A stretch of 64,000 bases of DNA from Caulobacter sp. S45. Its GTDB lineage: Bacteria; Pseudomonadota; Alphaproteobacteria; Caulobacterales; Caulobacteraceae. Position numbers and translations under genes: made by a program. The notes beneath the pieces are model-generated. The model did no database searches. It was not told where the DNA came from and saw only the letters and a list, made by a program, of their open reading frames with translations. Where the stretch lies: NCBI RefSeq assembly GCF_009765965.1, contig NZ_LMUL01000004.1, positions 18,420 through 82,419 of the forward strand, written 5' to 3'. Positions 22,442 through 42,219 of the stretch are shown here, piece after piece; the first letter of the stretch is position 1; every line of letters starts with the position of its first letter.

Positions 22442-22517
22442 GAGCCCGTAGCTCAGTTGGTAGAGCACGTGACTTTTAATCATGGGGTCCTGGGTTCGAA
22501 TCCCAGCGGGCTCACCA
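22442..22517 (+). tRNA. tRNA-Lys (anticodon TTT)
   Basis: A complete cloverleaf: acceptor GAGCCCG (22442-22448) pairs with CGGGCTC (22507-22513), discriminator A, and CCA encoded at 22515-22517. The D stem is GCTC/GAGC. The anticodon arm is CGTGA-CTTTTAA-TCATG with anticodon TTT at 22475-22477. The T arm is CTGGG-TTCGAAT-CCCAG. The anticodon reads AAA and AAG codons. Confidence 0.98.
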
Positions 22518-37042: not shown

Positions 37043-37112
37043 TCACGGACGGGGGCGGTCAAGCCGCCCTCGTCTCTCGGCCGACAGGCGTAGGGTAAGC
37101 GTGCGCCTCAGC

Positions 37113-37421
37113 CTACTGCGCATTGCCCGTATTCGACGGCTCGCCCGGCGCAGGCGACGATCGAGGCGAGGCGTTTTGCACCGGATACCCGCTGACATTC
37201 CGAGCGCCCGCGGCCCGCGCATTGTTGAGCGCGTTGAAATGCGGCGCGTAGAGCAGCCAGTAGCCCATCACCACCACCACAGCGAGGGCCAGCGAAATCA
37301 CCAGGATCCAGATGTTGCGCCCGGTGCGCACGGCGCCCCGCGCATCGGTCACGCTGGAAGCGATTCCCTCCCCGGCTCGGTTGGCGCGAGACGGGTCTTG
37401 GGTCGGCGGCGTCGTGGACAT
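37113..37421 (-). CDS. Small single-pass membrane protein, EcfG-controlled
   Basis: A 102-residue protein from the ATG at 37421, which has GGAGGAATTC right before it. A polar N-terminus (MSTTPPTQDPSRANRAGEG) leads to one membrane helix (IWILVISLALAVVVVMGYWL, about residues 38-57). A Pro/Ser/Asn-rich tail follows. No family recognised. An exact EcfG promoter with 17-base spacer sits 38 bases upstream, so it is probably part of the general stress regulon. Confidence 0.78.
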   Translation of the reverse strand: MSTTPPTQDPSRANRAGEGIASSVTDARGAVRTGRNIWILVISLALAVVVVMGYWLLYAPHFNALNNARAAGARNVSGYPVQNASPRSSPAPGEPSNTGNAQ

Positions 37422-37458
37422 GAATTCCTCCGGCAAGGATCGAGGATGCCTCCGAGCC

Positions 37459-37484
37459 AACGCCCCGACCGCAACGGCCGTTCC
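37459..37484 (-). promoter_or_regulatory. EcfG-type promoter for 37113-37421
   Basis: On the minus strand GGAAC (37484-37480), 17-base spacer, CGTT (37462-37459). Exact in both elements, with the longer allowed spacer, and 38 bases from the start codon. Confidence 0.7.
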
Positions 37485-37549
37485 GCGAGGAGGTCTCACC
37501 GGGTCTCGCTCTCGCAAGACGAAACAGTCGAATTTCGTGGATCGCCGCC

Positions 37550-37574
37550 GGAACGATCCGAAAGGCTGGATGTT
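37550..37574 (+). promoter_or_regulatory. EcfG-like promoter for GsrN-like RNA
   Basis: GGAAC at 37550-37554, 16-base spacer, TGTT at 37571-37574: one mismatch to CGTT. The structured segment begins at 37581, seven bases after the -10, which is where transcription would start. Confidence 0.6.
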
Positions 37575-37580
37575 ATTGCA

Positions 37581-37692
37581 GTGCGGAGGCGGTCACGCCC
37601 CCCCGACTTCAGGCTGGTTCGCCAGTCTGCCGCCTCCGCACCCCCTTAATGCAAACATCTGGCGTAGAGACGGCTTTCCGCCGTCTCCTTTG
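37581..37692 (+). ncRNA. Candidate stress-induced small RNA, GsrN-like
   Basis: A non-coding stretch of the stress island with clear RNA-like structure. A 12-bp perfect outer stem (37581-37592 with 37630-37641) encloses a run of seven C (37598-37604) and an inner stem CAGGCTGG/CCAGTCTG closed by a TTCG loop (one G-U pair). A second 8-bp hairpin, GAGACGGC/GCCGTCTC (37667-37687), is followed by CTTTGT and may be the terminator. In Caulobacter the EcfG-dependent sRNA GsrN uses a C-rich 5' loop to pair with mRNA leaders and is encoded near the same locus. Boundaries and homology are inferred. Confidence 0.6.
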
Positions 37693-37708
37693 TCGCCAAC
37701 TCTTGTCG

Positions 37709-38191
37709 TCAGGCGGGCGAAGCGTGGATGGCGACTTCGGTCTTGCGGCGCAGGGGAACCGACTTGCCACCTGGGGTGAGCGCACCGGCCTCGCCGAGCG
37801 CGCGAATCTCGAACTTGGGCGTGGGGAGGCCGGCGCCCTGAAGCGCCGCGGCCACCACCGCCGCGCGCCGACGGGACAGATCTAGGTTATCCGCGGGCGT
37901 CCCCTGGGCGTCGGTCAGGCCGAGCACGCTGACATAGCCGATATGGCAGCCGTGGACCTGGGCCGCCGCCGTCGCCAGCACCTGTTGAGCGCCACCCGTA
38001 AGCTGATCGGAATCCTCGGCGAAATAAATCGGGAAGGTCACGTCCTGGCACGTCGACGCCACCTTGGGAGCGGGCCGTGCCGGCTCCATGGTGGAGCAGC
38101 CCGCCACAGCCAAGCCGATCAGGCCTGCGGCCCCGAGGCCAAATACAAGGTTGAAATCCCTTGCGCGAATGCTCAAGCCCCACCTGCCCAT
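37709..38191 (-). CDS. OmpA-family lipoprotein
   Basis: A 160-residue protein with a lipoprotein signal ending in LAVAGC (about residue 32). The OmpA-like peptidoglycan-binding domain spans the rest: FPIYFAEDSDQLTGGAQQVL, VLGLTDAQGTPADNLDLSRR and RAAVVAAAL. The Asp and Arg that hold diaminopimelate are in this motif. It probably tethers the outer membrane to peptidoglycan. The lipoprotein gene at 38202 ends 10 bases upstream, so the two likely form a pair. Confidence 0.85.
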   Translation of the reverse strand: MGRWGLSIRARDFNLVFGLGAAGLIGLAVAGCSTMEPARPAPKVASTCQDVTFPIYFAEDSDQLTGGAQQVLATAAAQVHGCHIGYVSVLGLTDAQGTPADNLDLSRRRAAVVAAALQGAGLPTPKFEIRALGEAGALTPGGKSVPLRRKTEVAIHASPA

Positions 38192-38950: not shown

Positions 38951-39577
38951 TTACTTCCAGTCCGGCGCGGGGAAGGTATAGGCCTTACCCGAGCCGTTGG
39001 CGGCGGCATACTGCGCCTCCACGAAGCGCCAGTTCACCAGCTTGTCGAACCACTGTTCCAGGAAGCCCTTACGGTCCTGCTTGTGGTCGAGATAGTAGGC
39101 GTGCTCCCACACGTCGCAGACCAGCAGCGGGGTGACGCCAGCCTCGGTGATCGCGGTCGCGGCGTCGTGGGTGGAGATGATCTCCAGGTTCGGCCCACGC
39201 GCGATCAGCCAGGCCCAGCCGGAGGCGAAGTGGTTCACGCCTTCGTCGACGAACTTGGTCTTGAAACCATCCAGACCGCCGAACGCCTTGTCGATGGCTG
39301 CGGCCAGGTCGCCGGAGGGCTGGGACGGCTGGGGGGTCATGCATTCCCAGAAGAAGCCGTGGTTCCAGGCCTGGGCGGAGTTGTTGAACACCTTCTTGGT
39401 GGAGGACTTGACCACCTCCTCGAGGGTGGCGGGCTTTTCACCGGCGGCGGCGAGCAGGGTGTTCAGCGTCTCCACGTACTTGGCGTGGTGCTTGTCGTGG
39501 TGCGTGCGCATCTGCACGTCGGAGAGCACGGGGGCGAGGGCGTCGCTCGGGTAGGGCAGGTCGGGCAGTTTGAACAT
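38951..39577 (-). CDS. sodB: Superoxide dismutase, Fe type
   Basis: A 208-residue cytoplasmic enzyme dismutating superoxide. Metal ligands are His26, His73 (AWNHGFFWECM), Asp155 and His159 (CDVWEHAYYLDH). Gln69 just before AWNH is the position that marks iron rather than manganese enzymes. Length is usual. No EcfG promoter is seen in front of it, although it lies within the stress island. Confidence 0.95.
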   Translation of the reverse strand: MFKLPDLPYPSDALAPVLSDVQMRTHHDKHHAKYVETLNTLLAAAGEKPATLEEVVKSSTKKVFNNSAQAWNHGFFWECMTPQPSQPSGDLAAAIDKAFGGLDGFKTKFVDEGVNHFASGWAWLIARGPNLEIISTHDAATAITEAGVTPLLVCDVWEHAYYLDHKQDRKGFLEQWFDKLVNWRFVEAQYAAANGSGKAYTFPAPDWK

Positions 39578-40321: not shown

Positions 40322-40358
40322 CGGGTCAGCTCTCTTTCGGACGGTTCGCCGCGCTGGG

Positions 40359-40383
40359 AACGTCGGGCCGGTGCGGGAGTTCC
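40359..40383 (-). promoter_or_regulatory. EcfG-type promoter for DUF883-like operon, overlapping a hairpin
   Basis: On the minus strand GGAAC (40383-40379), 16-base spacer, CGTT (40362-40359), exact. A perfect 11-bp inverted repeat (40362-40372 with 40387-40397) overlaps it; GGAAC lies in the loop. The hairpin also follows the phyR stop. Confidence 0.85.
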
Positions 40384-40417: not shown

Positions 40418-41218
40418 TCAAGACGGGTTACGGGGTCGTGCGGGGTGGAAGAACAGCGCCTGCCCGATCGCCGCCTTCACCGTTTCCGGTTGGAACGGCT
40501 TGGTGATCAGGAAGGTTGGCTCGGGCCGCTCGCCGGTAAGCAGGCGTTCGGGGAAGGCGGTGATGAAGATCACCGGCACGTCGTGGCTGCCCAGGATATC
40601 CTTGACCGCATCGATGCCCGAAGAGCCGTCGGCGAGTTGGATATCCGCCAGCACCAGACCCGGCGCATTGCGCGCGACGGCCTCGACCGCCTCGCGACGG
40701 GTGGCGGCCACTTCGAGCACCTCGTGGCCCAGCTCCCTCACCAAGGCCTCGATGTCGGCGGCGATCACCGGCTCGTCCTCGATGATAAGCACCTGCGTCG
40801 CGAGCTCGGAATCGATCTCGCTCTGCGCTTCGGCGATCAGCGCTTCGATCTCGGTCAGCGACACGCCGAGAATCTGGCCGGCCTCCTGGGGATTGAAGCC
40901 CTCGAGCGCGGTCAGCAGGAAGGCCTGACGCGATCGCGGTGCGATGCGCATCAGCCGGCGGGACGCATCGTCCCCAACGCCGGGATCGACTTCACCCCGT
41001 GTCTCCAGCCGCGCTCCGGTGCTGTCCCAAATGGCATGGAACACATGGTAGAGCGCCACCCGGGGGGTGAGATGCGACGGAAGAGAACGCTCGCCGGCGG
41101 CCAGCGCTTCCAGCGCCGCGCGGACATAGGCGTCCCCCGCCGATTGCTCGCCGGTCAGGGCGCGCGCATAGCGCCTCATATACGGAAGATGCGGCGCAAG
41201 CCGCTCCAACAGACCCAT
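40418..41218 (-). CDS. phyR: PhyR general stress response regulator
   Basis: A 266-residue protein from the ATG at 41218 (GGAGG five bases upstream). Residues 1-140 form a sigma-factor-like domain without DNA-binding function (YMRRYARALTGEQSAGDAYV, LTALEGFNPQEAGQILGVS). Residues 142-260 are a receiver with EDEP acidic pair, phospho-acceptor Asp192 (LVLADIQLADG) and KPF lysine near 240. When phosphorylated it binds NepR and frees EcfG. It is divergent from nepR-ecfG and has its own exact EcfG promoter. Confidence 0.96.
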   Translation of the reverse strand: MGLLERLAPHLPYMRRYARALTGEQSAGDAYVRAALEALAAGERSLPSHLTPRVALYHVFHAIWDSTGARLETRGEVDPGVGDDASRRLMRIAPRSRQAFLLTALEGFNPQEAGQILGVSLTEIEALIAEAQSEIDSELATQVLIIEDEPVIAADIEALVRELGHEVLEVAATRREAVEAVARNAPGLVLADIQLADGSSGIDAVKDILGSHDVPVIFITAFPERLLTGERPEPTFLITKPFQPETVKAAIGQALFFHPARPRNPS

Positions 41219-41277
41219 ACTGCCTCCGTGAAGCTCGCGAAGAGCCTTGCAACCGCCCAACGCGCCGCAGCGGGCGC

Positions 41278-41302
41278 AACGTACGCCTACCGCCCCGGTT
41301 CC
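41278..41302 (-). promoter_or_regulatory. EcfG-type promoter for phyR
   Basis: On the minus strand GGAAC (41302-41298), 16-base spacer, CGTT (41281-41278), exact, 60 bases from the phyR ATG. It implies positive feedback of EcfG on phyR. Confidence 0.88.
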
Positions 41303-41353
41303 GACAACCGGGGGCTTGTCGTTGCATATCGTCGGATATATGGCCGCAGGGAC

Positions 41354-41378
41354 GGAACCGCCAACGCTTAGCGGAGTT
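41354..41378 (+). promoter_or_regulatory. EcfG-like promoter for nepR-ecfG-phyK
   Basis: GGAAC at 41354-41358, 16-base spacer, AGTT at 41375-41378: one mismatch. It is 54 bases before the nepR ATG, the place where autoregulatory EcfG promoters usually lie. Confidence 0.6.
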
Positions 41379-41431
41379 TCCGGCGATTGGAATTCGTTGA
41401 AGGCGCGCCCGGCGCGACGCTCCCATTGGTC

Positions 41432-41626
41432 ATGAACGAACGAACACATCGGGACCTAGCTCCCGATACGGAACCGGCCTTGGAGGAAGCGCGTCTTCGC
41501 CAACAGGCGATCGGCGCCAAGCTAAGGCATCTGTTCGACGAGATCGTAAACGAGCCCGTTCCTGAGGAATTCCTTGATATACTCAGGCGCGCCGACGATA
41601 AGAATAAAGACGCCGGTCAGGACTGA
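41432..41626 (+). CDS. nepR: NepR anti-sigma factor
   Basis: A 64-residue protein. LRHLFDEIVNEPVPEEFLDI is the NepR core helix pair that clamps EcfG and, under stress, PhyR. The N-terminal 25 residues are polar and variable, as in the family. I use the ATG at 41432; an in-frame TTG at 41387 would add 15 residues. Neither start has a strong ribosome site. Stop and ecfG start overlap (TGATG), which keeps sigma and anti-sigma levels coupled. Confidence 0.92.
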   Translation: MNERTHRDLAPDTEPALEEARLRQQAIGAKLRHLFDEIVNEPVPEEFLDILRRADDKNKDAGQD

Positions 41627-42219
41627 TGGTCCAACGTAACATTCTCGATGCCGCCTCCGAGACGGTGTTCAAGCGCGACCTGGTCGCATTGATCCCGCAT
41701 CTGCGCGCCTTCGCACGCACCCTGTGCGGCGACGCCGCCGCGGCCGACGACCTCGCGCAAGACGCGGTCCTCAAAGCCTGGGACGCGCGCTCCAGCTTCC
41801 AGATGGGCACCAACATGAAGGCCTGGACCTTCATGATCCTGCGCAATCAGTTCTATTCCGAAAAGCGGCGCTCCTGGCGGCAGACCCAGCTCGACCAGGA
41901 CGCGGCGGAGCGGACGCTGGTGGCCGCCGACGACCCCGAGGCGCCCGTCGCGCTCGACGAGATGCGGCTGGCCATGCGCATGCTGCCCTCCGAGCAGCGC
42001 GAGGCGCTGATCCTGGTGGGCGCGGGCGGCTTCGCCTACGAGGAAGCGGCGGAAATCTGCGGCTGCGCGGTGGGGACGGTGAAAAGCCGGGTCAGCCGCG
42101 CGCGCCGTGCGCTGCTGAACATCCTTGAGCGCGGCGCCTACGACCGGGACGGCTCGCCGGCGGGTGAAGCCATGAAGACCATCCTGGCAGATGCGGAGCG
42201 TCTGAGCGGACCACGTTGA
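41626..42219 (+). CDS. ecfG: EcfG-family general stress sigma factor
   Basis: A 197-residue ECF sigma factor (called SigT in Caulobacter). Region 2 is LIPHLRAFARTLCGDAAAAD then DLAQDAVLKAWDARSSF; region 4 is LPSEQREALILVGAGGFAYE then EAAEICGCAVGTVKSRVSRA. It directs polymerase to GGAAC-N16-CGTT promoters, several of which I find around it. Its stop overlaps the kinase start by four bases. Confidence 0.95.
   Translation: MVQRNILDAASETVFKRDLVALIPHLRAFARTLCGDAAAADDLAQDAVLKAWDARSSFQMGTNMKAWTFMILRNQFYSEKRRSWRQTQLDQDAAERTLVAADDPEAPVALDEMRLAMRMLPSEQREALILVGAGGFAYEEAAEICGCAVGTVKSRVSRARRALLNILERGAYDRDGSPAGEAMKTILADAERLSGPR

Follow-up and report, generated by a model that had tools for sequence, protein, structure and literature searches.

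Region 37550-37692 of the window, by which we mean the whole 64,000-nucleotide stretch of DNA that was analyzed, is in all probability the gsrN gene of Caulobacter sp. S45. Sequence, fold, promoter, and neighboring genes make it very probable that this copy belongs, with some divergence, to a known small RNA (sRNA) family of the bacterial stress response; it is nothing new in kind. When the whole window was compared with all 4227 Rfam families by cmscan, two matches reached their gathering scores: a tRNA at 22442-22514 and RF01529, the "CC3552" sRNA, at 37585-37688 on the plus strand (E = 1.3e-5). The latter ran end to end (model positions 1-106 of 106, not cut off), and its 52.8 bits lie 2.8 bits over the gathering score of 50, in a family whose best score was 124.7 bits and whose weakest accepted matches scored 34-39. 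It was the only RF01529 match in the genome at E <= 0.001; two matches to other Rfam families within 37550-37692 were at chance level and were rejected. A first-pass annotation had proposed a GsrN homolog here and had pointed to a covariance-model search as a check. That search returned RF01529 above its gathering score, and the proposed homology is supported because the match is accompanied by covarying 5' stems, a conserved promoter sequence and C-rich loop, and a conserved gene neighborhood.

The elements that had been picked out by eye (promoter, stems, C-run, and hairpins) were all found in place. An EcfG-type promoter of the form GGAAC-N16-TGTT occupies 37550-37574 on the plus strand, with GGAAC at 37550-37554, a 16-nt spacer, and TGTT at 37571-37574. 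Downstream, on the same strand, an outer stem of 12 perfect base pairs joins 37581-37592 to 37630-37641, the 3' arm being recovered by pattern, fold, and covariation alike. The stem encloses the C-rich loop CCCCCCCGAC (37598-37607; seven C at 37598-37604), a putative target-pairing seed that is single-stranded in the fold, and an inner stem-loop, CAGGCTGG-TTCG-CCAGTCTG, at 37610-37629, whose arms (37610-37617 and 37622-37629) are closed by the TTCG loop. A second hairpin of 8 bp pairs 37667-37674 with 37680-37687 and is followed by CCTTTGTC; together with its short T-run (37667-37692, plus strand) it is a probable terminator, with a run of only TTTGT, which is weak, and no matches in a terminator scan. 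The fold of 37575-37700, another check that had been suggested, reached -61.2 kcal/mol versus -37.1 +/- 3.4 for shuffled sequences (z = -7.2; 0 of 200 as good), and the trimmed RNA (37583-37691) gave a z of -5.3. Positions 37593-37609 were unpaired in both the minimum free energy and the centroid structures. The predicted transcript covers 37583-37688 on the plus strand.

RF01529 is very probably the RNA published as GsrN, given the agreement between its C. crescentus-like members and the published description. Tien, Fiebig, and Crosson (2018; PMC5869019) identify GsrN as ccna_R0081 of C. crescentus, an sRNA from Landt 2008, with a numbering that reaches 106, six C in the loop, and internal ends at C53, T54, and T64. 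They also describe a stable 5' isoform of 51-54 nt that arises by endonucleolytic processing, and the C53 cleavage maps to the arm that matches the 3' arm of the outer stem (37630-37641) in the window. Nine numbering registers were printed for three loci before one was chosen, which starts at a conserved G two bases before GGAGG or GAAGG. In this fitted register, C53, T54, and T64 were reproduced in 2 of 121 RF01529 members, L007 (genome G129) and L008 (G076); the C. segnis locus (L159) also has C, T, and T, but in another of the nine registers. Length, neighborhood, and katG leader played no part in fitting the register. The RF01529 matches of L007 and L008 are 104 nt long, which with the two preceding bases makes 106; sodB lies 2.4 kb past gsrN in G129 and G076; and none of phyR, nepR, and ecfG was detected within about 10 kb of gsrN in these two genomes, matches up to an E of 0.01 included. 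Both loci have six C in the loop, as do 10 of the 121 members in all. The katG leader of G129 carries GTCGGGG, in agreement with the described C. crescentus pairing, and 7% of shuffles reach that length. It is the coincidence in L007 and L008 of C53/T54/T64, the six C, the length of 106, and the distance from the general stress response (GSR) locus that leads us to equate RF01529 with GsrN. The same register, picked post hoc because it places C53/T54/T64 correctly in these two loci, puts the likely transcript start of the window copy at G37583 and not, as suggested earlier, near 37581.

Several lines of evidence suggest that the promoter is that of a typical family member. The window contains 14 copies of the pattern GGAACN{16,17}NGTT versus 2.07 expected, a count reached in 0 of 100 shuffles, and ten EcfG-type matches cluster around the GSR core between 36797 and 43915. 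Two of these promoter sequences overlap and diverge (40357-40383), and each of two DUF1328 genes has one in front of it (36869, plus strand; 38840, minus strand). GGAAC-N16/17-NGTT lies upstream of 47 of 51 RF01529 loci, the window excluded, a set made up of the 30 top-scoring loci, 20 chosen from weaker ones, and L032. Their -10 forms are CGTT (32 loci), GGTT (7), AGTT (5), and TGTT (3), with no match in 4. Of the 78 named loci whose upstream sequence is long enough, 75 have this promoter before gsrN, at 10 or 11 nt from the GGAGG of the stem; the corresponding distance in the window is 10 nt. The first-pass annotation was right that a GGAAC-N16-TGTT promoter is present, and its count of one mismatch does not mark a defect: we rejected the reading of TGTT as a defective promoter, since it is a usual family form (14 of 78 named loci and the 3 of 51 above).

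Both 5' stems covary among relatives and are kept by compensatory change. Our alignment holds 65 rows, that is, the window and 64 of 69 non-redundant candidates (L075, L079, L086, L140, and L163 were left out). These derive from 131 loci examined, L161 having been excluded beforehand, of which 123 stayed, 116 with a promoter; five were dropped for lack of the strict core (L067, L074, L082, L083, and L085) and three more at contig or locus edges. All five loci without the strict core have GGAAC upstream, and a stem pair was visible by eye in four. L086, one of the seven promoterless rows, had been wrongly located by the script, and some species are counted twice where two collections overlap. 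Across the alignment, 98.5% of cells are paired, and 12 of 18 pairs have changed on both sides, a level attained by 0 of 500 shuffles. Cells with changes on both sides number 78 versus 21.9 in shuffles, a control that ignores relatedness; when the partner was slid by 1-3 columns, a control that retains relatedness, pairing fell to 39-58%. In the outer stem, where 11 of the 12 pairs were tested, 99.2% of cells are paired, and three of the 11 pairs are invariant and so uninformative. All seven tested pairs of the inner stem have changed on both sides, and RNAalifold found the same helices unprompted. In the loop, columns 19-28 of the alignment carry the majority letter in 60-65 of 65 rows, which had been preselected on part of the core, and the C-rich core occurs in 46 of the 51 RF01529 loci, which had no core-based selection. 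The window copy departs from nearly every other row at three columns, with T at 12 (found in 1 other row), C at 13 (1 other row), and C at 31 (no other row), and it has an added inner-stem pair, C37610-G37629, and a TTCG inner loop. Its linker beyond the 5' module has diverged and lacks GATGATGC, which 36 of the 65 rows carry.

The genes around the RNA are also those of the wider family. On the minus strand upstream lies a gene for a 102-aa protein (37113-37421) that looks hydrophobic over one stretch, matches nothing in Pfam, and has its own EcfG-type promoter (37484-37459, minus strand). Convergent with gsrN is its usual 3' neighbor, an OmpA-family gene (37709-38191, minus strand; PF00691), followed by an iron/manganese superoxide dismutase gene that is sodB-like (38951-39577, minus strand; PF02777/PF00081) and by the GSR core at 40418-42219, with phyR (PF22029/PF22233) on the minus strand and nepR (PF18557) and ecfG (PF04542/PF08281) on the plus strand. 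Elsewhere in the genome (G000:C9:1277648-1278226) lies a gene for another EcfG-like sigma factor, which shares 65% identity with the EcfG of the window. Among 80 named loci, none longer than 8 kb, PhyR was matched in 65 (in L159 weakly and far off), OmpA in 57, always at +122 to +374 from gsrN, NepR in 50, and EcfG in 46; sodB falls in the same block in 26, and several loci end before it. No match to OmpA or sodB was obtained in several named loci, mostly of Brevundimonas, and none of the neighborhood genes was matched in L104, L142, L153, L161, and L163. Read from protein matches in loci of at most 8 kb, so that some members are out of view, the usual order is histidine kinase, ecfG, and nepR (minus strand), phyR, an optional DUF1328 gene, and gsrN (plus strand), then OmpA, a hypothetical gene (hyp153), DUF1328, sodB, and two small genes (all minus strand).

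The window keeps the run from gsrN through OmpA, the hypothetical gene, DUF1328, and sodB to the two small genes, but its phyR-nepR-ecfG-histidine kinase block stands beyond sodB and not before gsrN. In ten further regions of 17-20 kb, the core was on the usual side in five (G005, G017, G019, G025, and G030) and absent from four (G129, G076, G009, and G011), and G012 had the order of the window. Because this arrangement is common to G012, which belongs to another genus, it is no assembly accident. In the window, phyR and ecfG are 2.7 kb and 3.9 kb from gsrN, a closeness typical of Caulobacteraceae other than C. crescentus. PMC5869019 places gsrN near the GSR genes in Caulobacteraceae with C. 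crescentus as the exception, and homologs beside the GSR locus were thus already predicted in print in 2018; the earlier statement that gsrN sits close to the core regulators in Caulobacter is untrue of C. crescentus and true of other members of the family.

A lack of stem conservation in sister genomes had been named as a refuting observation. The outcome is split: the stems are conserved across much of the family, yet RF01529, DNA, and core-pattern searches turned up no gsrN in two genomes of the same genus, G010 (about 270 contigs, 96% complete) and G027 (about 430 contigs, 85%), a weak G027 match (L053) being left out. In these two genomes (loci L046 and L047), the 102-aa gene adjoins the OmpA gene, their aligned parts being 105 and 118 nt apart; in the window, 287 nt separate the two genes. 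The sodB gene of the window had no match inside this block in either genome, although a SodB 45% identical to it is encoded elsewhere. PhyR and EcfG are retained, at 87% and 90% identity. In the wider family gsrN sits beside OmpA, which makes loss in G010 and G027 likelier than a gain of the gene in the window. Genomes that have a GSR core and no detectable gsrN, these two included, offer natural comparisons for roles of GsrN beyond katG.

According to PMC5869019, the proven action of GsrN in C. crescentus is activation of katG, through pairing of the loop, four of its C included, with the first seven nt of the katG mRNA, which amends the initial description of a loop directed at mRNA ribosome sites. 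The genome of Caulobacter sp. S45 has two katG copies. One (L063) is intact and lies behind what appears by eye to be the end of an aldehyde dehydrogenase gene. The other (G000:C6:51271-52235; L064 and L065) is broken: its reading frame shifts near profile position 81, and it stops near position 320 of 716, where no contig end lies; it has an upstream box, CAATTTTAC, that also precedes katG in several relatives. Neither copy carries the GsrN leader site, the longest exact loop complement being 5 nt in leaders taken as 150 nt before the intact copy and as the span from the box to the start in the broken one, with mRNA starts assumed. Upstream of the box, and probably outside the mRNA, there is a 9-nt complement, GGGGGGGCG. 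Control of katG through the C. crescentus leader site is not expected here because neither leader has the site, and the idea of katG as a conserved target is not borne out in this genome.

We also surveyed katG in 21 loci (the intact copy above plus 20 chosen by hand from 193 katG-positive genomes), of which L216, L217, and L218 were dropped for lack of a usable start. GTCGGGG occurs in 3 of the remaining 18 leaders (G129, G217, and G223), GTCGGG in a fourth (G125), and an 8-nt loop complement, GGGGGCGT, in that of G031. The script anchored several rows on an internal ATG, so their leaders include coding sequence; the two leaders of the window genome were redone separately. Single sites of this kind are not significant because single-base shuffles reach 7-8 nt in 7-14% of trials. 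We make no claim that gsrN follows katG across genomes: over all 299 Caulobacteraceae genomes, the odds ratio was 4.7 (p = 4e-9, relatedness ignored). Within the 240 genomes with NepR, 156 have both, 50 gsrN only, 20 katG only, and 14 neither (p = 0.058, relatedness again ignored), and 51 of the 208 gsrN-positive genomes show no katG, so that the katG link counts as a role in C. crescentus and not as a defining trait of GsrN.

One interpretation, which we offer tentatively and consider less probable than its converse, is that GsrN has been rewired: promoter, structure, and C-rich seed have been kept, the katG leader site, which makes GsrN a peroxide-protection RNA in C. crescentus, has been lost, the conserved job across the family concerns other G-rich targets, and the RNA and the adjacent sodB have been cleanly deleted in two sister species that keep the GSR core. 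In the parts of the literature consulted, passages of PMC5869019, PMC11005374, and PMC6237742 among them, where these points were not searched by name, we met no prior description of the loss within the genus, of the core block on the other side, or of the missing katG site. An argument can also be made that the gene in this genus is a decaying copy, recognizable and no longer functional or expressed. Its score is low in the family range, neither same-genus genome yielded a gsrN, the katG site is absent and one katG broken, and the T-run is short; yet the 12-bp outer stem is free of mismatches, the inner stem has gained a pair, the C-run and the GAC are intact, and the promoter has the usual family form and spacing. 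We regard decay as improbable because a decaying RNA would hardly keep stems, C-run, GAC, and promoter together. The hairpins do adjoin a convergent gene, but there is next to no likelihood that they are a mere terminator between it and an upstream transcript, with no sRNA, given a promoter that ends 9 nt ahead of the predicted start, a structure far more elaborate than a terminator, the RF01529 match, and the covariation. Equally negligible is a coding origin. Two listed open reading frames do span the stretch (37101-37649 and 37312-37779, both plus strand), but the RNAs of relatives differ in length by amounts that do not divide by three (their C-run has 6 to 9 letters), and their stems show paired changes.

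A functional gsrN gene remains our preferred reading, and across genomes gsrN co-occurs with NepR. RF01529 was detected in 208 of 299 Caulobacteraceae genomes (E <= 0.001, strict filters), 201 passing the cut-off, and in 3 of 289 genomes sampled from the class under strict filters, all three Caulobacteraceae. NepR was found in 240 of the 299; 206 of the 208 genomes with gsrN have NepR, and 57 of the 59 without NepR lack gsrN, a statistic that ignores relatedness. Four genomes (G150, G154, G158, and G203) from one genus, g3, have two RF01529 matches each, a possible duplication. Of 34 NepR-positive genomes without an RF01529 match, 4 contain the core pattern, which marks a gsrN in G028 alone. 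A few more copies may be hidden because the core pattern misses 5 of 51 genuine loci. Fifteen genomes lacking a match were re-searched at E up to 1, which yielded 17 weak matches, 15 with loci inspected; among these, only G028 (L048) had both a C-rich core and a promoter, and it was accepted as a sub-cut-off gsrN. Weak matches near contig ends (L053, L054, L058, and L062) were left out of judgement. Core-pattern matches in G021, G114, and G126, along with a second one in the genome of the window, were dismissed as chance, with no gsrN-like C-run or promoter (L224 offers 11 nt upstream), and a match in a 'Rhodospirillales' MAG (L161) was rejected for want of a promoter and a pairing arm.

Under general stress, PhyR sequesters NepR, and EcfG is freed. 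By analogy with the published system (PMC5869019), EcfG would then use 37550-37574 to start an RNA of about 106 nt at approximately G37583. Its 5' half would fold into the double stem that presents CCCCCCCGAC, and this loop could pair with G-rich sites in mRNAs and change their translation or stability, again by analogy with GsrN (PMC5869019). Processing to a 5' isoform may likewise occur as described for GsrN (PMC5869019), and the 3' hairpin is modeled as ending transcription. In this way, gsrN would give the general stress response of Caulobacter sp. S45 a post-transcriptional arm.

Comparison with known systems places the RNA within its family. For Rhizobium etli, Sinorhizobium meliloti, and Brucella abortus, PMC5869019 mentions putative GsrN-like RNAs next to the GSR locus, and by that description they share with the window copy an EcfG-type promoter near the GSR locus and an exposed 5' loop; they differ in that our search of 289 genomes of the class, under strict filters, gave no RF01529 match outside Caulobacteraceae. 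The likeness to RF01529 itself is a full-length match above gathering with consensus stems alike, whereas the window copy is low-scoring, has a short TTCG inner loop, and is diverged in the linker from the 5' module to the 3' hairpin. With GsrN of C. crescentus it shares an EcfG/sigma-T-type promoter, a length of about 106 nt, a 5' double stem with a C-rich loop, and a 3' hairpin, and with the C. crescentus-like G129 and G076 a sodB gene downstream of the RNA. It differs from C. crescentus in having seven loop C in place of six, a TGTT -10 element in place of CGTT (the form searched for in PMC5869019), a place beside phyR-nepR-ecfG in place of a distant one, and no katG leader site, and from L007 and L008 in its loop flanks (TC and CAG versus CG and GAG). 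Across the family, the linker, the katG site, and the place relative to the core genes have varied, and what has been held is the promoter, the double stem, and the C-rich seed.
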